Shown here in pieces: positions 21,542 to 31,574 of a stretch of DNA of 47,298 nucleotides. Origin of the DNA: Nitrospirales bacterium (lineage in GTDB: Bacteria; Nitrospirota; Nitrospiria; Nitrospirales; UBA8639). The DNA is taken from contig BQIZ01000007.1 of NCBI GenBank assembly GCA_021604365.1, positions 1-47,298 of the forward strand, given 5' to 3'. The notes under the pieces are model-generated. The model worked only from the letters and a program-made list of their open reading frames with translations. It was not told the DNA's origin and made no database searches. Position 1 is the stretch's first letter. Every line of letters starts with the position of its first letter. The position numbers and the translations under genes are program-made.

Positions 21542-21951
21542 GAGAGGGAAACAACCTAGGCCTCCTTCTTCTACGTTTTTATCTTATTGGCAGATTATCC
21601 GGATGGTTCCATTTTGATTGCAGGAGGGGCCGACAATTAGCCTGTAAGTGAAGACCGGAAGGCTTTTTTCAAGCGTTAATACCTGAAAAGTATGTAAATG
21701 GTGGAGCCCGATGGAGAAGTCTCGAAACAACTATTCCTGATTTTAGCAGAGTGGGACTTCATTCTTCAGAGCGCTTCGGTCGATCTCAGCCCATCTCTGT
21801 AATACCCGATAATACTGTATTTCAGTAGTACCTACTTTAAACGCTAGTCCAGAATCTTACTGGGCTGGCGTTTTTCTTTTCCCTCGGTTTAACCAAGACA
21901 ATTCATGGCACGTATCGGCTCTGTTTCCCAGGAACAGGGTTTGGCCGTGCT
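21542..21951. other. Non-coding stretch before mobC; possible element end and oriT
   Basis: About 410 bases with no convincing gene. It contains the 9-bp candidate att copy (21698-21706), short inverted repeats TACTG-TATTT-CAGTA (21813-21827) and GTAG-TAC-CTAC (21825-21835), a terminator (21842-21875) and CTGTT-n7-AACAG near 21920. Mobilizable elements of the MOBP type carry oriT just upstream of mobC, so oriT is expected here, but I cannot point to a nic site. Confidence 0.35.
21842..21875 (+). terminator. Intrinsic terminator just upstream of mobC
   Basis: cgctagtccag (21842-21852) pairs with ctgggctggcg (21860-21870), an 11-bp stem with two G-U pairs and a 7-base loop, followed by tttttcttttc. 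This is a strong plus-strand terminator. It has no gene within 300 bases upstream, suggesting it ends an untranslated transcript or insulates the mobilization genes from the chromosome. Confidence 0.7.
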
Positions 21952-22440
21952 ATGTCAATTTTAGAAAAAGTGAAAGATATGCCTGTACCCAAGAAAAAGC
22001 AAATATCGCCTTTCTCACTACGCCTGACGCCAGAAGAACGCACGCAGCTTGATAAGGATGCGGCAGGCATGTCTTTGGGGGCTTATATCCGTTCTCGTCT
22101 TTTTGAAAGCTCAATCCCTAAAAGGCGAACCCGGAATAAGTTTCCAGTCAAAGACCATCAGGAGTTGGCCAAAGTCCTGGGCGAACTGGGCAAATCACGC
22201 CTCGCCAACAATATGAACCAACTAGCCAAATCCGTGAATAAAGGAATTCTGGAAGTCACACCGGAAACCGAACAAGCCATTCACGCTGGCTGTTCGGATA
22301 TCCGGTGGATGCGTCATGTCCTAATGGCAGCTCTAGGTTTAATAGTGGAGAAAGATCATGATTCTGAAAGGCTCACAACGTGGTGGAGCCAGGCAACTGG
22401 CGACCCATCTTTTAAAGGTGGAGGAAAACGAGCATGTTGA
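21952..22440 (+). CDS. MobC-like relaxosome / ribbon-helix-helix mobilization protein
   Basis: 162 aa. The segment SPFSLRLTPEERTQLDKDAA-GMSLGAYIRSRLF is the MobC/RHH DNA-binding signature, and LGKSRLANNMNQLAKSVNKG is the helical MobC core (the NxNQxAxxxN-type motif). Such proteins bind oriT and help the relaxase nick it. The gene overlaps the relaxase start by 83 bases in another frame, so the two are translationally linked. The start has a poor ribosome-binding site; an internal ATG at 21979 is an alternative. Confidence 0.8.
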   Translation: MSILEKVKDMPVPKKKQISPFSLRLTPEERTQLDKDAAGMSLGAYIRSRLFESSIPKRRTRNKFPVKDHQELAKVLGELGKSRLANNMNQLAKSVNKGILEVTPETEQAIHAGCSDIRWMRHVLMAALGLIVEKDHDSERLTTWWSQATGDPSFKGGGKRAC

Positions 22441-23668
22441 AATTCATGAAATCTACGGCTTTGTCTCAGAAGACTTGGATGGGGCTTTGAGAGAAATCCA
22501 CGCCATCAGTCAAGGCACGCGCTGTAAGCAATTCATGTTTTCCCTAAGCCTAAATCCGCCTCAATCCGAATCTGTCCCAGTTGAGTATTTTGAAAAAGCG
22601 CTAACGGATATTGAAAAAGAGTTGAAACTTGAAAATCAGCCACGCGCCATCGTGTTTCATGAGAAGGAAGGCAGACGGCATTGCCATGCTGTCTGGTCAC
22701 GGATTGATACGAATGAGATGAAAGCTATCAACCTGCCGTATTTCAAAATGAAGCTTCAGAATATTTCCCGCCAGTTATATTTCCAATATGGCTGGCAAAT
22801 GCCCCTTGGCCTGATGAATAAGGAGGAACGCAATCCTCTCAATTTTTCCCTAAAAGAGTGGCAACAGGCCAAGCGCCTACAGGAAGATCCGAAAGTGATT
22901 AAACAGCTTTTCCAGGGTTGCTGGGCGGTTTCGGACAATAAGACCTCATTAGAAAAGGCTTTAAATGAGTATGGGTATTATCTGGCCAAAGGTGACCGAC
23001 GTGGTTTTGTCGCCATTGATTATCGCGGCGAGGTGTACTCTTTGAGCCGCTGGATGGGGGTGAAGACCAAAGACCTTAAACATCGTCTTGGAAATTTGGA
23101 GGCCCTACCAGGTACGAAAGAGGTTAATGCTCAAATCGCCGGGCGTATGAGCCAAATGCTGGAAACATATATATGCCAAGTCCAGAGTGGTATGAATAAA
23201 TCTCTTGAGCCTTTCAGGCAAAAGAAAGAGTCGATGAAAGACTCCCACCGAACACAGCGCCAGGACTTGAAAAAAAGGCAGAATGAGCGCCGTAAAGATG
23301 AAGAAAAAAAACGTTATCAGCGTCTGCCAAAAGGCTTTAAATCCCTTTGGGCAAGGATGACAGGGAAGTATCAAAAAATCAGAGCCCAGAATGAACGGGA
23401 GGTCAAAAACTTAAATATCCGCGATAGAGAAGAAAAGCAAGCTTTGATAGACCGTCAGCTTACGGACCGGCAGAATCTGCAAGATCAGGTCCGGCCTATC
23501 AAACGCCAACATCAAAAGCTGGCCATCCAACTCAAAAAGGATGTTGTACAATATTTAGAAATGAGAGAAATGCCAGAAGCTATATTTCAGCAGAAATTAT
23601 TCGATGCTGAAGATCGCTTGACAAAGACATTCATTAGAAGACGGGACTATGATCCCGAAATGAATTAA
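22358..23668 (+). CDS. Relaxase / mobilization nuclease (MOBP-like)
   Basis: 436 aa. The N-terminus MILKGSQRGGARQLATHLL is typical of the relaxase/mobilization nuclease family. EGRRHCHAVWSRID (about 103-116) supplies the metal-binding HxH-x-VW motif, with Tyr candidates upstream and around 145. From about 290 onward the protein is highly charged and coiled-coil (lysine/arginine/glutamine-rich), as is common in relaxase C-termini. GGAG precedes the ATG inside mobC. It would nick oriT and lead the DNA strand into a helper-encoded conjugation pore; no coupling protein or type IV secretion genes are present in the element. Confidence 0.87.
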   Translation: MILKGSQRGGARQLATHLLKVEENEHVEIHEIYGFVSEDLDGALREIHAISQGTRCKQFMFSLSLNPPQSESVPVEYFEKALTDIEKELKLENQPRAIVFHEKEGRRHCHAVWSRIDTNEMKAINLPYFKMKLQNISRQLYFQYGWQMPLGLMNKEERNPLNFSLKEWQQAKRLQEDPKVIKQLFQGCWAVSDNKTSLEKALNEYGYYLAKGDRRGFVAIDYRGEVYSLSRWMGVKTKDLKHRLGNLEALPGTKEVNAQIAGRMSQMLETYICQVQSGMNKSLEPFRQKKESMKDSHRTQRQDLKKRQNERRKDEEKKRYQRLPKGFKSLWARMTGKYQKIRAQNEREVKNLNIRDREEKQALIDRQLTDRQNLQDQVRPIKRQHQKLAIQLKKDVVQYLEMREMPEAIFQQKLFDAEDRLTKTFIRRRDYDPEMN

Positions 23669-23729
23669 AATTGTAAGAGGGGTGCTTGTATTGGCATAAG
23701 CGTTTTTAATTATCGCCTCTCACCTACAA

Positions 23730-24596
23730 ATGAGCGAATCAAAAAGAGTTAAAAAGTTTTGCTTAACGATAGCTAAAAATATTCCTATCTTTCCAAACAA
23801 CAAGCAAACTAGACAAAAGCTATTAAATGAACCTTTAGGAACGCTGTTGATTCACTACGCAAACTGGGCTTCTCGGTACGTATCAATTAGGCCAAGAGTG
23901 GTTGAAGTATATTGTGAAGTGGAAGACAGCCCAAGAGGGGGAATTTTATCAGGTCTGATTACCACTTTCCTAAAAAAGGTAACGGAAGGTGAAGATTTAA
24001 CGACATATTTATCTTTGAAACCACATACCAGAGGCTACTCACCTGAAGCTTCAGGAACTGGACCAAATGTTAACCGTTGGGCGGATAAAGACTTTCTCCT
24101 CACAGTAATGGGTTATCACCATTTCCATTTAGGTCCAATTTGTGGTGAGAAGGGATTGGCCGCCCGCACTAACGAGATTCTGTTTGCCTACGTGTCTCGC
24201 GAAAAATTCGAAGTGTTAGGAGTCTTTGATCATTCTGTATTTGTTTCCAGCTCTTCTTCCCACCATGAAATGTCACAAGAACGATCCCGATTGTGGGCTA
24301 CTTTCGATGCCCACTCTTCAAGAGGAAGGCCTAGCGATTCTGTTGTGATATCCGGAGCTATAACTACGTCAGGCCATGCATTGCATTTAGTAATGCTGGC
24401 CCAGGATTATTCTCGTGTTATTCGAGATGTTGATCCATTGCTGGATGATCCTACTTACGTCAAACGTCTATATGAAACAGCCAATGAACCACTTCCAAAC
24501 AAACTGCGACTAGAATGGAAATTAATTTTTTTGGACCTTGGGCTATGGGATCAGAAGTTGAATAGGTTTTTTATTCTCAGGAAAGGGCCTAATTAA
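23730..24596 (+). CDS. Uncharacterized cargo protein with HHFHLG motif
   Basis: 288 aa, not a family I can name. The centre carries MGYHHFHLGPICGEKGLAAR, then EILFAYVSREKFEVLGVFDH. The pattern HHFHLG ... R ... LLF ... H recurs, as far as I recall, in uncharacterized proteins of phage and genomic-island origin, and the clustered histidines look catalytic or metal-binding. There is no membrane segment or signal peptide. It begins 61 bases after the relaxase gene without an obvious ribosome-binding site and uses AT-richer codons than the core genes. A defence or toxin role is possible but speculative. Confidence 0.65.
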   Translation: MSESKRVKKFCLTIAKNIPIFPNNKQTRQKLLNEPLGTLLIHYANWASRYVSIRPRVVEVYCEVEDSPRGGILSGLITTFLKKVTEGEDLTTYLSLKPHTRGYSPEASGTGPNVNRWADKDFLLTVMGYHHFHLGPICGEKGLAARTNEILFAYVSREKFEVLGVFDHSVFVSSSSSHHEMSQERSRLWATFDAHSSRGRPSDSVVISGAITTSGHALHLVMLAQDYSRVIRDVDPLLDDPTYVKRLYETANEPLPNKLRLEWKLIFLDLGLWDQKLNRFFILRKGPN

Positions 24597-24639
24597 CAAT
24601 GGGCAGGTCAGCATGATGTGCACAATTTCCATCACTTAC

Positions 24640-24676
24640 AAAAAGAGCTTCCTATCTGGATGCGAATAGGAAGCTC
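24640..24676 (-). terminator. Intrinsic terminator of the 132-aa minus-strand gene
   Basis: gagcttcctat (24645-24655) pairs perfectly with ataggaagctc (24666-24676), an 11-bp stem with a 10-base loop. On the minus strand it is followed by TTTTTGT. It lies 24 bases beyond the stop codon of the minus-strand gene. Confidence 0.75.
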
Positions 24677-24699
24677 AAAAAAATAGCACCTCTTTGTTG

Positions 24700-25098
24700 C
24701 TAGGAGTGAGTATGTTCGAAGTGTTCTACTCTTGAAGGATTTCGAGGGTCCAGATCATGAGGTTGGTTTAATTTGTAGATTTCTCTAATTGCCGCGTCGA
24801 TGACCAGTCTGGCTTTTGAGCTAAATTCCATAAGCTTTGTAGATTTAGCGATTATTTCATTACCCAGGTATTTATTGGCTTTCCTCAGCCGTTTTTCAAG
24901 AATTTCAGGATTTCCAACTCTCCCACCATAAATCATTCCCAAAACTGAAGATAATTCCATCGTTGCTTCGTGAAGCAAAGGCCTGAAGATTGGAAGTAAC
25001 GCACCAGATGTTGAAAGTGCCTTTTCCATTTCAGACACAATTTCGTCTAATTGCTTAATAGATGGTGGGCAATCTACTGCAGAGTTGGCATTACTCAT
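24700..25098 (-). CDS. Small helical cargo protein, unknown function
   Basis: 132 aa from the ATG at 25098, where AAGGA stands 8 bases upstream; the track start at 25131 lacks one. The sequence is predicted to be mostly alpha-helical (KQLDEIVSEMEKALSTSG, ILEKRLRKANKYLGNEI, KLMEFSSKARLVIDAAI) and ends in a histidine-containing tail. No known domain. It is transcribed divergently from the PDC-like membrane protein with a 95-base AT-rich shared region. Its own terminator follows. A regulator or partner of its divergent neighbour is possible. Confidence 0.6.
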   Translation of the reverse strand: MSNANSAVDCPPSIKQLDEIVSEMEKALSTSGALLPIFRPLLHEATMELSSVLGMIYGGRVGNPEILEKRLRKANKYLGNEIIAKSTKLMEFSSKARLVIDAAIREIYKLNQPHDLDPRNPSRVEHFEHTHS

Positions 25099-25193
25099 TA
25101 AGAATATCCTTCGGTTTTTATCTTTAAACACTTAAGTAACGACCCTATTACCCTATATTTTTTTTGTCAAATCCCTTATTATCGCCGGCCATT

Positions 25194-26345
25194 ATGTCAA
25201 AGAAAGACTATATCTCAATAATCAATTCGTATCCTGATATTTTAGAACCTGCCGAGGAGTTCCTCACCTCCTTATTGGAAGATATTTCCAAACAAGAAGT
25301 TATCGATGACCGTAGGATTCGGCGGGAGGGATTGGAACGTATTGCAGGTCCTTTCAAATTTATAGATTTGGTCTACATTTTAAACGCGGAAGGTGATCTT
25401 ATTGATGATAGCTATAAGTGTGAAATTGCTGGAGCTTATATGTTCGCAAGTACCTCCGATAATGAAGCTCGCATAAGTAGGTATTTACAGCAGGAAAACA
25501 GGGAAAAAGCGTCGACTAACAGCGGACGGAAAAACCGAGATTATTTTAGACAAGTAGATCTTGACGGAGAGAGCGGAATTGTCCACGTTACAGAACCTTA
25601 TCTTTCTACAGCTACAGGATTTCCATGTATATCTGCCTCCGTAGCAATAGAGGAAAAATCTGTAGCAATAGGAGAAAAAAGTAAAAGAAAAATTTTAGTA
25701 ATGGACGCTGACCTTTCTGGTTTGCAAGCTTTTCTTAATGGCGATGTGGACGGACATAAAAGAGAAAATATTTTCAATAGGATATATAGGACATTATTAG
25801 TCACTTTAGGAGGGATAACAGGTATTTTATTCATCGGTGGGATTGCAGAACTAGTGATGGCTCTTAAAGATATAATATTTCCTAAATGGGACTATAAGGC
25901 CGCATTCTTTTCATCCAACACATCACACCATTTTGATATCACAGTTTTTTTAGATATTCTTGTTACGTTTACAGTAGCGTTAGCAATGTTGGACTTGGTG
26001 AAAACATTGTGGGAAGAAGAAATTATTTTTTATAAAGATTTAACAAAACCTAGTCCAGCAAGGAGAACGGTGATACGGTTCATTACCGCCATTCTCATCG
26101 CACTTTCAATTGAAACCCTTGTCCAGGTCTTTAAAGTTTCCCACATGGGTGAAACAGACAAAATTCCTTTAGACCCCATCTCGATGCTATATGGTGTCAC
26201 CGCGCTTTTAATTGGGCTTGCCGTATACATTGTCCTAACCAGCCTTACAGACCTTACAAAAGACAGAGTTTTACTCAGGGCCATTCAAGATAGCATTGGA
26301 AATCTTTCAAAAGTTAAGGAATCTAAAGATAGGGGAACCCCTTAA
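25194..26345 (+). CDS. PDC-like sensor domain protein with four transmembrane helices
   Basis: 383 aa from ATG 25194; the track TTG start at 25164 has no support. The first 170 residues look like a PDC/Cache-type sensing domain (FIDLVYILNAEGDLIDDSY, RDYFRQVDLDGE, VTEPYLSTATGFPCISASVA). There is no membrane segment in front of it, so it may face the cytoplasm. Four hydrophobic helices follow (about 215-240, 260-285, 305-325 and 340-362). Similar architectures have been annotated 'general glycosylation pathway protein', a label with weak basis. There is no kinase or cyclase output domain. Ligand and role are unknown. Confidence 0.65.
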   Translation: MSKKDYISIINSYPDILEPAEEFLTSLLEDISKQEVIDDRRIRREGLERIAGPFKFIDLVYILNAEGDLIDDSYKCEIAGAYMFASTSDNEARISRYLQQENREKASTNSGRKNRDYFRQVDLDGESGIVHVTEPYLSTATGFPCISASVAIEEKSVAIGEKSKRKILVMDADLSGLQAFLNGDVDGHKRENIFNRIYRTLLVTLGGITGILFIGGIAELVMALKDIIFPKWDYKAAFFSSNTSHHFDITVFLDILVTFTVALAMLDLVKTLWEEEIIFYKDLTKPSPARRTVIRFITAILIALSIETLVQVFKVSHMGETDKIPLDPISMLYGVTALLIGLAVYIVLTSLTDLTKDRVLLRAIQDSIGNLSKVKESKDRGTP

Positions 26346-26429
26346 ACTTCATACAGCACCCCTGAATTTATTGCTTACATCTTTAAATTTGCCATACTAA
26401 AGAATAACAAACTAAGGGGTGGCTGGTTT

Positions 26430-26580
26430 GTGTCGAGTCTGGAGAGAGCTCAAGGCGAGGCAGAGCCGAAGGCAGATAAGAAATGCATCCAAGGACGCAT
26501 CCTTAGTCGTCGTGCAGGGAACAAAACCCCTGCTTGAAGTCCAGCAACCGAAATGCTGGCCGTAATTGAACGGCGGAATA
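26430..26580. ncRNA. Hairpin-dense block, candidate structured RNA upstream of the TOPRIM-like gene
   Basis: In the 407-base gene-free gap 26346-26752 three perfect hairpins follow each other: aagga-cgca-tcctt (26491-26504), gcaggg-n8-ccctgc (26514-26533) and ccagca-n7-tgctgg (26541-26559). They are preceded by a GC-rich purine-rich segment unlike the AT-rich surroundings. The 62-aa minus ORF across it looks like a chance ORF. The strand is not determined; the plus strand would place it as a leader of the TOPRIM-like gene, about 170 bases before its ATG. Confidence 0.35.
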
Positions 26581-26752
26581 GATGGCGCGCAATTGGCCAA
26601 TAGTTTAGAACTAATTATTTCAGAATTTATATGATTGAAACCTAATTCTACAAAGCTCTCCTTCTGATTTCAGCCCATCTTTTTAAGTCTCAGCATCTGG
26701 CCTTTAAGAACGGCGTTTCCTTTATTCTTAACATTGGCTATTCTTCGGAATT

Positions 26753-28477
26753 ATGTCAGAAAACTTGCTCACTATCCCTAAAGATGCTGCCCAAAAAATT
26801 ATAGCTTCTAGCGCTATTATTGCTTGCCCGATTCTGGGCACAAACAATTTCATTAAGTTCTGCAGAGACCGTGACTTAAACATAAACCGCGAGCGTCTTT
26901 TTCGATTGGAACGCCTCGAGTTGTTTTCACCTATTTTCCGAGTAAAAACTCCAGAAAAAGACAGCCCCTCATTTGCAATCCCATTGGTTGAAAATAATAA
27001 CTGGTTTGTTAAAGGCTGGGCGTGGGACACAACTGACATAAAGCAAAAATATTCTGTGCCAGACCATAAAGACCATGCTCAAGAGGGATATTATTCGATC
27101 TTTCAAATTGACCACCTGAGCCTTGTCCTTTCGGCCATGAGTCTTGATGTTCATATGGATGATTTTTTGGATAAGGGTAAGCAACACGAAATTGACTGGG
27201 AAAAGAAAGGAAGGCGCTGGATTGAGTTATTTCAAAGTCAAGGAGAAAGTCTTGCCACCCATGAATACCGCCGCAGCACAGCACTTCTATGTCAATTCAT
27301 ATCTAATCGATATTATCCCCAAACCCAAACAGACCAGCGAACCATCAAAACAGGAGGAAGATTCTATTCAGACCAATGGATCACTGTATTAAAGAAAAAC
27401 TATGATTGGGATGAGGCTGTTCGTATTTGGCAACCACATTCTGCAGAAGAACTCTTTGATCTCACACCCGAAAAATTAAAGCATGCTTATGAGGGATTAT
27501 CCATCGCGCAATCATCCTGCGATCCTTTGGATAGTTGGTATCAACTTGTTCAATTTATATCTGTAAATGAACGACAGAAATTAAAAGGCCAAGCTTTACG
27601 TGCTGAGACGATCCGTGCAGGAGCAAACATGCTTCGCCTTCTATACAAAGACCTCTACAGCGAAGAATTACCCAATCCCAATGAAATTACACGAACCATC
27701 ATCACACACATTCCAGAGTTAGAGGTACGAAAAGACACTCGTCGCTATTTAGAGTTTGTAGTTAATCAGTATAAATTAAATCCTCAGCCGTCTCTTTGCT
27801 TGCTTGTAGAAGGTAAAACTGAAGAATTGGCTGTGACTAAGATTTTTGAGGAATACTTTAGTGCCCACCCAGGAACATACGGAATCGAGATCATTAATTT
27901 ACGCGGTGTCGATAATGCAACGGGCGGGAAAAAGGAGCAATATCAAGCAATTATTCGACTGATTGATTATTTACATCATCATCAAACTTTTGCCTTTCTA
28001 ATTTTAGACAATGAAGGATATGCAGGAAACCTTCAAAAGAGAGCCAAAAAAGCTAAATCCATCCACCAACATCGCCTATTCGTTACTCGACCAGAGTATA
28101 TCAAAATCTGGGGAATATCATTCGAATTCGATAATTATTCATGCCAGGAAATTGCCACGGCGCTAAATAAAATAGTCTGCGGCAAAGCACTTTTTTCCGG
28201 AAAAGACATAATGGCGTGTAAGAAAGATCAGTACCCTGGTGCAAGCCTAGAAAAACTCTTTGAAGAAAAAATCCAACGATCACTTCCTAAAGTTCAATTT
28301 AATGAAATCTTGCTTGAAACTATGTTCTCCGAAACATCTCGGAGAAAAATTAGCAATCGGCCCATTATCAAAATCCTTGAACGTGCTGCAAAACTTGCAG
28401 CAAGAAATCCTCTTCCTACGATGAACGAGATTTGGGTGAAAAACCAAGCATCAAAATATTTAGGGAAAAAAGGGTGA
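26753..28477 (+). CDS. Stand-alone TOPRIM-like protein, uncharacterized cargo
   Basis: 574 aa. The C-terminal part contains two TOPRIM-type motifs: LLVEGKTE with its catalytic-type Glu (about residue 352) and FLILDNEG (about 415-422). The latter has an acidic D-x-E in place of the usual D-x-D. These motifs occur in OLD-family nucleases, primases and related enzymes that cut or join nucleic acid. The first 340 residues have no recognisable ATPase or other domain (no Walker motif), unlike classical OLD proteins. It is a single plus-strand gene in the element's AT-rich centre, flanked by hairpin-rich DNA. An anti-phage nuclease role is plausible but not shown. Confidence 0.7.
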   Translation: MSENLLTIPKDAAQKIIASSAIIACPILGTNNFIKFCRDRDLNINRERLFRLERLELFSPIFRVKTPEKDSPSFAIPLVENNNWFVKGWAWDTTDIKQKYSVPDHKDHAQEGYYSIFQIDHLSLVLSAMSLDVHMDDFLDKGKQHEIDWEKKGRRWIELFQSQGESLATHEYRRSTALLCQFISNRYYPQTQTDQRTIKTGGRFYSDQWITVLKKNYDWDEAVRIWQPHSAEELFDLTPEKLKHAYEGLSIAQSSCDPLDSWYQLVQFISVNERQKLKGQALRAETIRAGANMLRLLYKDLYSEELPNPNEITRTIITHIPELEVRKDTRRYLEFVVNQYKLNPQPSLCLLVEGKTEELAVTKIFEEYFSAHPGTYGIEIINLRGVDNATGGKKEQYQAIIRLIDYLHHHQTFAFLILDNEGYAGNLQKRAKKAKSIHQHRLFVTRPEYIKIWGISFEFDNYSCQEIATALNKIVCGKALFSGKDIMACKKDQYPGASLEKLFEEKIQRSLPKVQFNEILLETMFSETSRRKISNRPIIKILERAAKLAARNPLPTMNEIWVKNQASKYLGKKG

Positions 28478-28633
28478 AGCTTGTAAGGTGTAACCTGGAG
28501 GTTCTATGGGAATGCGGAGTCTCTTCTTGCGAATGATAAAACGGCGATACGTTTTGATGGTGTGAAGTGGGCGGATGCCAACACAGCTCCAAGGCTAGAG
28601 GGATGCAACGGGAGAGCGCAGCATCTCCCTTGC

Positions 28634-28706
28634 CAAGATGTGTTGTAGTACAACACACATCTTGCGGTAATCCTTACCGTTAAGGCTTTCAGGCAGCTGT
28701 AATACA
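28634..28706. repeat. Cluster of three palindromes in the 335-base gap after the TOPRIM-like gene
   Basis: caagatgtgttgta (28634-28647) faces tacaacacacatcttg, a near-perfect long inverted repeat differing by a 2-base insertion. It is followed directly by cggtaa-tcc-ttaccg (28665-28679) and ctgtaatacag (28696-28706). The first may act as terminator of the TOPRIM-like gene, although it has no T run. The gap 28478-28812 otherwise holds no credible gene. Confidence 0.5.
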
Positions 28707-28812
28707 GTTAATGTTCTCGAGATGATCCGACATGAACCGTAACCGAACTGGCGTCAGACCCCATTGCTTGTTAATTCAGGTGCTTACGAGAAGACAAGGT
28801 AGGGCCAGAAGT

Positions 28813-29064
28813 TTATTGCGAGGCCAAGGATTCCTCAACGGCCTTGCGGATATATTTCTGGTAGGAAATACCTTCTTGGTCTGCTTTCTGCCGTACTGCC
28901 GAAAGCAGTTGCTCTGAAAACCGTAGATTGACCTGCTTGTCCTTCGGAAGCATCTCAAAATTGACCGAGGTGAAATTCTTCAGATTGATGTAATCCGTCA
29001 AATCCTGGTCCAGGAACTTTTCAGCGTCTTTATCACTCTTCAATTTTGGCACTTTCTTCTTCAT
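28813..29064 (-). CDS. brnA: BrnA-type antitoxin (CopG-like)
   Basis: 83 aa from ATG 29064, which has GAGG 8 bases upstream; the track start 29100 is upstream inside the toxin gene. The C-terminal part VNLRFSEQLLSAVRQKADQEG-ISYQKYIRKAV is a ribbon-helix-helix DNA-binding domain of BrnA/CopG antitoxins. It overlaps the toxin gene by 32 bases and is translated downstream of it. It should neutralise BrnT by binding it and should also repress the shared promoter (known for the family). Confidence 0.9.
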   Translation of the reverse strand: MKKKVPKLKSDKDAEKFLDQDLTDYINLKNFTSVNFEMLPKDKQVNLRFSEQLLSAVRQKADQEGISYQKYIRKAVEESLASQ

Positions 29065-29350
29065 ATCGTTTCGCCTCTTTCTCATGCATATAACGGGCAC
29101 TAATGGGCCGGATTAACCTCTCTCCATTCACATCCCGCAGGGTAAACACTACAAACATCGGCTTGTGCTTTTTAGAGCGTCCAATGGCCAGATAACGTTC
29201 CTCTTCATCGGAATGCTTGGGATCGGGGGCAACCAACACCTCGTGTTGGTGAAAGAAATATTCAATTTCCTTCTGGGAGAGCCCATGTTTCTGGCACTTT
29301 TCCCGATTCCCTTCATCCCAATCAAAGCCGTTTACCTGTAGATTTATCAT
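29033..29350 (-). CDS. brnT: BrnT-type toxin (ribonuclease)
   Basis: 105 aa, the usual size. The signature is complete: FDWDEGNREKCQKHGLS at the N-terminus, then the central IGRSKKHKPMFVVFTLRD strand pair, and IRPISARYMHEKEAKRYEE near the end. BrnT proteins are RelE-like ribonucleases that halt growth by cleaving mRNA. It is the first gene of the brnTA operon, in the typical toxin-first order. A strong -35 with an operator-like palindrome in the promoter spacer precedes it. Within the mobile element it probably stabilises the element against loss. Confidence 0.93.
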   Translation of the reverse strand: MINLQVNGFDWDEGNREKCQKHGLSQKEIEYFFHQHEVLVAPDPKHSDEEERYLAIGRSKKHKPMFVVFTLRDVNGERLIRPISARYMHEKEAKRYEEESAKIEE

Positions 29351-29358
29351 AGCATGAC

Positions 29359-29386
29359 GTTATGCATTTGTCTATACAAATGTCAA
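29359..29386 (-). promoter_or_regulatory. brnTA promoter with operator in the spacer
   Basis: On the minus strand TTGACA (29386-29381) is followed after 16 bases by CATAAC (29364-29359). The whole spacer is covered by the perfect inverted repeat CATTTGT-CTAT-ACAAATG (29365-29382). A BrnA dimer bound there would exclude RNA polymerase, giving tight autorepression. Confidence 0.65.
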
Positions 29387-29682
29387 TCTCTTTATTCTTC
29401 CATTTTTGACTCGGCAAATGAGAACAAATCGTGTACATTTATTTTTGAACTCACCCAAACCATATCAAATACTTTTTATTACGAAAAATTGCTTGCCTGG
29501 TGTTGAGAGTTCTTCATCGAACAAACCGCTTTTCTGATTTCTCCAATTCAGACAACACTACCATGCGTCCTGTTTCCCAACCAGGAAACCTTCTCATGTT
29601 ATATATTTTTCAGTCATTCGTTTTAACCCTTTATGATGCGTCTGTCTTACAGCCAGCCGTAAGGAATCGTTGTGATCTTGTC

Positions 29683-29955
29683 ATGTCCTTAGATATTCAG
29701 AAATACACCCGCTTCGTCGAAGGCTTTGACCTGACCGACAAGCAGAAGCGGGAATTAATCCAAACGGTCTGGCAGATCATGGAAGGCTTTGCTGATCGGG
29801 GCTGGGGTATTCATCCCTTACAACAGGGGCGTGGTAAAGAGAAAAATAGAGATTGCCAAGGGAAGAATGGGTCCATAGAATCGAAGGACACCAACCCTGA
29901 AACATTCATTGGTTCTTCAATGCCTCCACCTTTGGAGAACAAGAAAGATTCATAA
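29683..29955 (+). CDS. Small conserved protein encoded just upstream of the recombinase
   Basis: 90 aa from ATG 29683 (the track GTG start at 29500 adds an implausible leader). Its N-terminus, DIQKYTRFVEGFDLTDKQKR and LIQTVWQIMEGFADRGWG, matches what I recall of small proteins that often precede large serine recombinases in integrated elements. They may act as directionality factors or partners, but no function is proven. The C-terminal half is hydrophilic and probably disordered. It ends 9 bases before the recombinase ATG, so the two are likely co-transcribed. Confidence 0.65.
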   Translation: MSLDIQKYTRFVEGFDLTDKQKRELIQTVWQIMEGFADRGWGIHPLQQGRGKEKNRDCQGKNGSIESKDTNPETFIGSSMPPPLENKKDS

Positions 29956-29964
29956 GCAATAGAA

Positions 29965-31548
29965 ATGAAAGCGAAACCCATGTCAAAGCAAAGTCATATA
30001 CCAAAGGCCGTGATTTATTGCCGCGTGTCCAGTACCGCCCAAGTCACCAAAGGTGATGGGTTGGGTTCACAAGAAACACGCTGCCGCGAGTACGCGAAAC
30101 ATAAACATTACGAGATTGTGGAAGTGTTTAAGGATGAAGGTATATCAGGTAGTTTGATTGACCGTCCTGGTATGCAAGCGATGCTGAAATTTCTACGAGC
30201 ACGGGAGACGAAACAAGATATCGTCATCATTGATGACATTAGCCGTCTGGCGCGTGGGCTGGAAGCACATATCCAACTTCGTATGGCCATTGGGGAAGCC
30301 GGGGGAAAGTTAGAAAGTCCTTCAATTGAATTTGGAGACGATAGTGATAGCCAGTTGGTGGAAAATCTTCTGGCTAGTGTCTCGCAACATCAGCGGCAGA
30401 AAAACACCGAACAGGTGGTTCACCGCATGCAAGCCCGGATGATGAACGGCTATTGGGTCTTTTTTCATCCGATCGGCTACCGCTATGAGCGCGTGAGCGG
30501 CCACGGCAAAATGCTGGTACGGGATGAACCACTCGCGTCCATTATCACTGAAACTCTAGAAGGCTATGCACGGGGTCGATTTGAAACGCAGAGCGAGGTC
30601 AAGCGGTTCCTGGAGTCTCATGAGGCCTTTCCAAGGGGGCGAGATGGGAAAGTCCATTATCAGCGGGTCAACAACTTGCTGGTGCAGGTCCTCTATTCAG
30701 GGTACATCACCTATTCCCCTTGGAATATCACACTCCATCCTGGGAAACATGAGCCCCTGATCAGTTATGAGACTTTCCAGGCTATTCAAAAGCGGCTAAA
30801 CGGACAAAGTAAAGCTCCAGCACGCAAGGACCTCAATGCGGACTTTCCGTTACGAGGGTTTGTCACCTGTGGATGCTGCGGCTCTGCCATGACGGCATGC
30901 TGGTCCAGAGGACGAGACCGGAGTTATCCGTATTATCTCTGTCCTCAGAAAGGTTGTGAAGCATACGGCAAATCGATCCGAAAGGAAATCTTAGAAAAAG
31001 AGTTTGAAACTCTTTTAAGCGAACTCCGGCCTTCACCCAATCTCTTTTACCTAGCTTTGGAGATGTTCAAAGAACTGTGGAGTCATCGGCAGCAACAAGC
31101 CAGACAAGAAGATCAACACATGCAGGGTGAGTTGCGCAGGATTGGGAAAAAGATTGATCAATTTCTTGACCGTATGGTGGAAGCAGACACCTCCATGCTT
31201 GTAAAAACCTATGAAAACAAGGTCAAGGACTTGCAGGAAAAACAGGTTATTTTAAACGAAAAAATCAAAAATTGTGGTCGTCCGCTCCAAAGCTTCGATG
31301 AGAGTTTTAGAACCGCGTTTGATTTCCTAGGAAACCCTTATAAACTCTGGAGTTCTGACCGTCTTGAGGATAAGAGAATGGTGCTGAGATTGGCGTTTTC
31401 TGAGAAATTACCCTATGACCGAAATGAAGGTTTTAGAACCGCCCCAACCGCCCTCCCCTTCAGGCTTTTAAGCGATTTGAAGGGGTGCGGAAATAGTATG
31501 GTGGAGGGCACGGGAGTTGAACCCGCGACCCCTACGTTGCGAACGTAG
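29965..31548 (+). CDS. Large serine recombinase (integrase) overlapping tRNA-Ala antisense
   Basis: 527 aa. The resolvase domain starts with IYCRVSS, whose first serine (about residue 22) is the catalytic nucleophile, followed by GDGLGSQETRCREYA and DDISRLARG. The recombinase domain and a zinc-ribbon (CGCCGSAM...YYLCPQKGC, about 298-332) follow, and then a C-terminal coiled coil. It should cut and rejoin DNA at att sites to integrate and excise the element. The last 17 or so codons (MVEGTGVEPATPTLRT) are the antisense strand of tRNA-Ala, and the stop codon lies inside the tRNA gene. ATG 29980 is a possible alternative start. Confidence 0.93.
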   Translation: MKAKPMSKQSHIPKAVIYCRVSSTAQVTKGDGLGSQETRCREYAKHKHYEIVEVFKDEGISGSLIDRPGMQAMLKFLRARETKQDIVIIDDISRLARGLEAHIQLRMAIGEAGGKLESPSIEFGDDSDSQLVENLLASVSQHQRQKNTEQVVHRMQARMMNGYWVFFHPIGYRYERVSGHGKMLVRDEPLASIITETLEGYARGRFETQSEVKRFLESHEAFPRGRDGKVHYQRVNNLLVQVLYSGYITYSPWNITLHPGKHEPLISYETFQAIQKRLNGQSKAPARKDLNADFPLRGFVTCGCCGSAMTACWSRGRDRSYPYYLCPQKGCEAYGKSIRKEILEKEFETLLSELRPSPNLFYLALEMFKELWSHRQQQARQEDQHMQGELRRIGKKIDQFLDRMVEADTSMLVKTYENKVKDLQEKQVILNEKIKNCGRPLQSFDESFRTAFDFLGNPYKLWSSDRLEDKRMVLRLAFSEKLPYDRNEGFRTAPTALPFRLLSDLKGCGNSMVEGTGVEPATPTLRT

Positions 31549-31574
31549 TGCTCTCCCAACTGAGCTAGCCCCCC
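31499..31574 (-). tRNA. tRNA-Ala, anticodon CGC
   Basis: The minus strand gives a complete cloverleaf beginning GGGGGGCTAGCTCAGTTGGG. The anticodon arm is CTACG-TTCGCAA-CGTAG, anticodon CGC, reading GCG. The acceptor stem includes the G3:U70 wobble that identifies alanine tRNAs, and the 3' CCA is encoded. It is the apparent integration site of the mobile element; the element's recombinase gene extends into its 3' half on the opposite strand. The copy remains intact. Confidence 0.95.

Follow-up and report, generated by a model that had tools for sequence, protein, structure and literature searches.

Introduction

Known OLD-type TOPRIM nucleases of defense systems are either fused to an ABC ATPase or a reverse transcriptase or have one of these as a partner, and an ABC ATPase is the usual regulator of OLD-type nucleases. 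RloB/AbiLii, too, pairs with an ATPase gene, RloA/AbiLi. In the class 2 enzyme BpOLD, residues E400, D455, and D457 are the ligands of metal A, while E404, T506, and E508 are those of metal B, with K562 assisting (PMC6755086). A 2023 review asks for examples of single OLD proteins, defense by such a protein alone being an open point (PMC10568477), and the searched passages of a further study propose TOPRIM/OLD effectors beside BREX as a backup layer (PMC12839542).

Here, we describe an ATPase-less OLD-type TOPRIM gene in a 47,298-nt stretch of DNA (hereafter, the window) from a Nitrospirales bacterium (UBA8639; assembly GCA_021604365.1, contig BQIZ01000007.1, positions 1 to 47,298, forward strand). 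The gene probably encodes a one-gene phage-defense nuclease of an undescribed kind.

The C-terminal half carries a predicted OLD-type TOPRIM active site

The gene (26753..28477, + strand) is an open reading frame with an ATG start that encodes 574 amino acids, of which the C-terminal part (27779..28477, + strand) forms a TOPRIM and helical domain, as indicated by Pfam, Foldseek, and a residue match to BpOLD. In the window protein, PF20469 (OLD-like_TOPRIM) covers residues 349-389 with an E-value of 2.5e-6 and 28.3 bits against a gathering cutoff of 23.2, and the same family is matched by 26/26 homologs, at E-values of up to 1. The full-length AlphaFold2 model, built from an alignment of 26 sequences, reached a mean pLDDT of 85. 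Upon searching the PDB with Foldseek, we obtained as the best five matches the C-terminal TOPRIM of XccOLD and BpOLD, at a probability of 1.00 and E-values (0.007-0.02) that are not extreme; the entries with probability 1.00 for the C-terminal half include 6njw, 6nk8, 6njx, and 6njv. In PADLOC, similarity to GajA/Old was weak and did not extend beyond the TOPRIM part. No whole-protein model was found in Pfam, NCBIfam, or PADLOC, with NCBIfam giving no match of any kind to the window protein, PDB sequence searches with the protein, the alignment, and a C-terminal profile gave no relevant match, and a BFVD fold search returned nothing convincing.

Both motifs that an earlier, sequence-only reading of this DNA had called TOPRIM-type, LLVEGKTE and FLILDNEG, are indeed present, and the PF20469 and Foldseek matches to OLD TOPRIM domains bear out that assignment. 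The residues it proposed for mutation, E352 and D418, were each numbered one too low and become E353 and D419 when counted from the ATG. The predicted active site of the window protein comprises E353, E357, D419, E421, S456, E458, and K513, of which all but S456 are invariant in 26/26 homologs, with S, T, or C occupying position 456 in most of the aligned sequences. On the basis of motif and spacing, without structural superposition, this set corresponds in the same order and spacing to E400, E404, D455, D457, T506, E508, and K562 of BpOLD. The C-terminal half is thus predicted to keep the two-metal active site of class 2 OLD enzymes, and the conserved residues suggest that it is catalytically competent. 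As had also been noted before, there is no ATPase: no Pfam ATPase domain matches the window protein, and a Walker A motif is absent from it and from every homolog. The earlier view that this is not a standard OLD nuclease holds, as the N-terminal ABC ATPase of such nucleases is missing.

These residues bear on what the enzyme might cut. We regard it as unlikely, but as deserving attention, that a one-gene defense nuclease is at work whose target is tRNA or another RNA, as for PARIS AriB, with translation being shut down. It would fit such a target that type I RM operons carry RNA-cleaving backups such as PrrC. The TOPRIM nuclease AriB cleaves tRNA, according to the passages searched (PMC12409363, PMC12839542). 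The best structural matches, however, are class 2 OLD DNA nucleases, and the residue set contains the positions, S/T-x-E and Lys, on which BpOLD relies when acting on DNA.

The N-terminal half is a confidently modeled domain without known relatives

Residues 1-342 (26753..27778, + strand) are mostly helical in the AlphaFold2 model and, when modeled alone, yielded a pLDDT of 84.6 and a pTM of 0.86, i.e., one confident domain. A Foldseek search of the PDB with these residues gave no match (best E-value 1.3, probability 0.04), and the HMM and structure searches together found no Pfam, NCBIfam, or PDB-fold match for the N-terminal ~340 residues, in keeping with the earlier description of this part as an unknown N-terminus. 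Ten N-terminal residues are invariant in the homolog alignment (R63, Y113, S115, F117, Q118, R186, R196, D257, P258, and W262). A small N-terminal alpha/beta part, in which short strands come after helices 30-39 and 46-54 in the model, resembles by eye a winged helix. In the predicted architecture, the ABC ATPase is replaced by this ~342-residue domain.

An integrative mobilizable element carries the gene as cargo

The TOPRIM gene lies within a 9.8-kb element (21698..31497) inserted in the 3' end of a tRNA-Ala gene (31499-31574, - strand). The direct repeat ATGGTGGAG bounds the element at 21698-21706 and 31498-31506, and a relative (G010, locus L117) has the empty site, in which the counterpart of window position 21706 is joined to that of 31498 at the tRNA-Ala 3' end. 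Because the window flanks adjoin in this relative, we place the element ends at 21698-31497; exact repeats alone did not reveal the left end. The element encodes a MobC/NikA-type mobilization accessory protein (21952..22440, + strand; PF21983, E 4.3e-10), a MobA/VirD2-type relaxase (22358..23668, + strand; PF03432, E 6.6e-14), a pair of BrnT toxin and CopG-type (BrnA) antitoxin (28813..29350, - strand; PF04365, E 1.3e-20, and PF12441, E 1.2e-24), and a large serine recombinase (29965..31548, + strand; PF00239, PF07508, and PF13408), whose C-terminal codons overlap the tRNA-Ala gene. The relaxase, the site-specific recombinase, the defined ends, and the empty site of a relative identify it as an integrative mobilizable element, and the TOPRIM gene is its cargo, as the sequence-only reading had supposed. 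At 0.43, the G+C content of the element lies below the 0.50-0.52 found outside it, and that of the TOPRIM gene is 0.40.

Two further genes on the element deserve mention. The cargo gene at 23730-24596 has weak similarity to the PADLOC defense family PD-T4-7 (E 9.7e-5) and is possibly a second defense gene. The gene at 25164-26345 encodes a membrane protein whose PDC-sensor-like match is weak, falling below the cutoff (E 8e-4).

Homologs often neighbor restriction systems and have no recurring partner

We found homologs in defense contexts, and not only at housekeeping loci. Confinement to housekeeping loci and a structure without TOPRIM fold were the two outcomes that the sequence-only reading had named as refuting it, and neither occurred. 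In two Nitrospira, a type I RM operon surrounds the TOPRIM gene. A Type ISP enzyme is encoded directly upstream at L025 and L051, MmeI upstream at L033/L034, and Eco57I immediately upstream at L053, while at L038 HsdM is adjacent and a C5 methylase nearby. At L035/L036, DSR2, in two pieces, ends 29-31 bp upstream of the TOPRIM gene; at L035 (6275-9903), it lies in two overlapping frames and is apparently frameshifted. Genes for SLFN and UvrD are adjacent at L041. Genes with a methylase motif made up 8/109 of those within two genes of the TOPRIM gene versus 4/396 farther away (p 9e-4), a crude count in which Pfam contradicts 2/8 near matches (a SIR2 protein at L035 and a decarboxylase at L038) and the far matches were scored by motif.

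Clustering of the genes at 35 loci revealed no gene family as a recurrent neighbor of the TOPRIM gene, and a Walker A gene occurs within two genes at 7/35 loci, of mixed kinds, with none in the window. Because there is no recurring partner and the Walker A neighbors are few and mixed, this looks like a one-gene system. No reverse transcriptase was identified among the annotated neighbors; some of the YxDD-like matches that occur within two genes come from MmeI and other proteins that are not RTs.

The neighborhoods also bear on whether the nuclease might serve mobile elements, through their maintenance or the exclusion of competing elements or plasmids, in the manner of anti-plasmid TOPRIM proteins. 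The window copy sits on an integrative mobilizable element, at L024/L026 the gene has HipA upstream and an ICE T4SS operon downstream, and a TrwC relaxase and an integrase are encoded nearby at L028 and L029, respectively. Yet many copies lie beside restriction systems or DSR2 without an adjacent mobility gene, and defense genes are commonly carried on mobile elements, making such a service improbable in our view.

The gene interrupts a hairpin-array element

The sequence-only reading had pointed to hairpin-rich DNA on both sides of the gene, and these flanks turn out to be the conserved halves of one element. With an nhmmer model built from contiguous copies, we located a 5' half (model positions 16-179) at 26407..26592 (+ strand, E 9.6e-32), just downstream of the membrane protein gene, and a 3' half (model positions 203-398) at 28496..28688 (+ strand, E 4.9e-53). 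Each flank has matches in related genomes, several of which carry the two tens of bases apart. Since the flanks are contiguous there, the TOPRIM gene interrupts one pre-existing copy of the hairpin element. The interrupting segment (approximately 26593..28495, + strand, from nhmmer) stands in for about 24 model positions, and no clear target-site duplication was seen at it. Compensatory changes were present in several hairpins across an alignment of just eight sequences, and single-sequence folding was modestly better than that of shuffled controls (z -2.1 for the upstream flank and -1.8 for the downstream one). Rfam gave no match for either flank at either threshold.

The hairpin-array element is noncoding, ~400 nt long, variable in hairpin number, and low in copy, and occurs in 9/98 surveyed relatives, the window genome included (copies at L083:3981-4473, L084:1162-1563, L085:3951-4424, L086:3921-4461, L088:2001-2383, and L089:3814-4097). 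In L089 and L095, relatives of the window serine recombinase are encoded close to the hairpin element, and four genomes (L088, L090, L092, and the window, at 28813-29350) have the BrnT/CopG pair next to it. As related recombinases recur near it and the BrnT/CopG pair beside it, the hairpin element seems to belong to the backbone of this mobile-element family, with copies elsewhere. Separately, we noticed by eye that genes for IS110-family-like transposases, with a GIDVSKA-type start, lie inside or directly beside the hairpin element at L084 and L087, which suggests that it is an insertion target.

The sequence-only reading further considered a TOPRIM effector that works with a flanking structured RNA or DNA site. 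Such an arrangement would be comparable to that of retron ncRNA with OLD effectors, and conserved structured DNA on both sides of the gene was in its favor. We now find this very improbable, because the flanks belong to a single element, which relatives possess intact and without the gene, the nhmmer model of the element had no match in any of the TOPRIM homolog loci, and neither a reverse transcriptase among the annotated neighbors nor an Rfam match was found. As no TOPRIM homolog locus carries it, the hairpin element is not a guide RNA or site of the TOPRIM protein. Overall, what stands from that reading is an ATPase-free TOPRIM protein with an N-terminal half without known relatives, carried as cargo and found in defense contexts, while the partnership with the structured flanks is not supported.

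The family is patchy and spread across phyla

Using the alignment as query, we found homologs at 34 loci in genome_contigs, several of them fragments or with internal stops, in a patchy distribution over five or more phyla (Nitrospirota, Alpha-, Beta-, and Gammaproteobacteria, Cyanobacteriota, Nitrospinota, Chloroflexi, Acidobacteria, Cloacimonadota, and Aminicenantes); the single protein, used in a peptide-pattern scan of genome_contigs, recovered no relative. The gene is present in 3/98 surveyed genomes of relatives, and 10/396 genomes of the phylum gave a match, both counts including the window's own genome; the genome survey and the genome_contigs scan partly overlap. In an incongruent tree, the Nitrospirota TOPRIM sequences occupy at least 4 separate positions, and the closest relative (62%) belongs to a gammaproteobacterial endosymbiont. 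We take the gene to be horizontally transferred between phyla. The dN/dS ratio was 0.09-0.26 in five homolog pairs (a sixth had no usable dS), and the homologs are under apparent purifying selection.

The TOPRIM sequences of L052 and L053, labeled Cloacimonadota and Aminicenantes, are undifferentiated in the tree. Because their end branches are 0, one of the two MAG assignments may reflect contamination or, alternatively, a very recent transfer.

A chromosomal repair or housekeeping nuclease, as the few copies in metabolic operons could suggest (the cobalamin operon at L047/L048, the same locus as L020, and the oxidoreductase genes beside L040), is scarcely credible given that the gene is missing from nearly all relatives, that its tree is incongruent, and that it is carried on mobile elements.

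A proposed role as a self-gated defense nuclease

We think it reasonably likely that the protein is a one-gene, horizontally mobile nuclease, most likely an anti-phage effector, that is gated by its own N-terminal domain. The gene neighborhoods are the basis for the defense role, and similarity to class 2 OLD enzymes is that for a DNA substrate. The N-terminal domain would keep the nuclease inactive until it senses an infection signal, which might be foreign or modified DNA, or the failure or inhibition of the resident restriction system. The freed nuclease would then nick or degrade nucleic acid, with DNA being a likelier target than tRNA, and the damage would stop phage growth or kill the infected cell (abortive infection). 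It may thereby form a backup layer behind restriction-modification, perhaps when restriction is blocked. Against a defense role, several homologs lie in plain chromosomal or metabolic contexts, and none was found in the viral contig, phage, and plasmid collections. More tentatively, and with chances that we put somewhat below even, this could be a new single-protein immunity, with the OLD-type TOPRIM nuclease under the control of a sensor fold not seen before instead of an ATPase and with direct monitoring of infection, e.g., by responding to restriction-enzyme inhibition or phage DNA structures.

Defense by a lone protein becomes directly testable with an ATPase-free family whose active site is apparently intact, which has a new, putatively regulatory domain, and which is strongly linked to restriction systems; the family also adds an unannotated candidate to the defense catalogs.

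Comparison with known systems

Several described systems resemble the present family in part. The TOPRIM/OLD effectors of Retron-Eco2 and Retron-Eco8 likewise lie near structured sequence; here, however, we identified no reverse transcriptase, and the structured sequence has no link to the TOPRIM family. PARIS AriB and RloB/AbiLii are likewise ATPase-free TOPRIM polypeptides linked to restriction or BREX loci, but AriB pairs with the ATPase gene AriA, whereas our family has no conserved ATPase partner and possesses a 342-aa extra domain. DUF4276, the RloB/AbiLii domain, matched 4/26 members weakly (best E 0.036). Class 1 OLD enzymes (P2 Old and TsOLD) are also single genes with a C-terminal TOPRIM but have the ABC ATPase that the family lacks, and TsOLD ranks seventh in the fold search (probability 0.60).

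Membership in four of these systems was considered and rejected: in Gabija, for want of an ATPase and an adjacent GajB helicase; in PARIS, for want of an adjacent OLD-ABC ATPase AriA; in the two-gene RloB/AbiLii system, given the weak DUF4276 match and the lack of a conserved partner; and in retrons, as the annotated neighbors have no RT domain and the hairpin element is absent from the homolog loci.

The backup effectors beside BREX and RM loci likewise include TOPRIM nucleases in or next to restriction operons, yet the most prominent of them are OLD-ABC linked, and the ATPase-free family is undescribed in the searched passages of that study (PMC12839542). We found no description of an ATPase-free OLD-type TOPRIM architecture in the literature searched, which lacks many subscription papers, making this absence weak evidence.

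With class 2 OLD/GajA proteins (BpOLD, XccOLD, and Gabija), the family has in common the C-terminal TOPRIM and helical fold as well as E-x3-E, D-x-(D/E), (S/T)-x-E, and a distant Lys at matched spacing. Unlike Gabija, it has no adjacent GajB, and no helicase occurs in the window cargo, with L054 having a UvrD-type helicase two genes away. Unlike class 2 OLD/GajA as a whole, it is without the N-terminal ABC ATPase, and the second residue of its DxD is Glu in 26/26 members. Hence, with a TOPRIM domain and the two-metal acidic set present and an N-terminal ABC ATPase missing from the same polypeptide, the protein belongs to the OLD-like TOPRIM domain family but stands outside the definition of an OLD nuclease.
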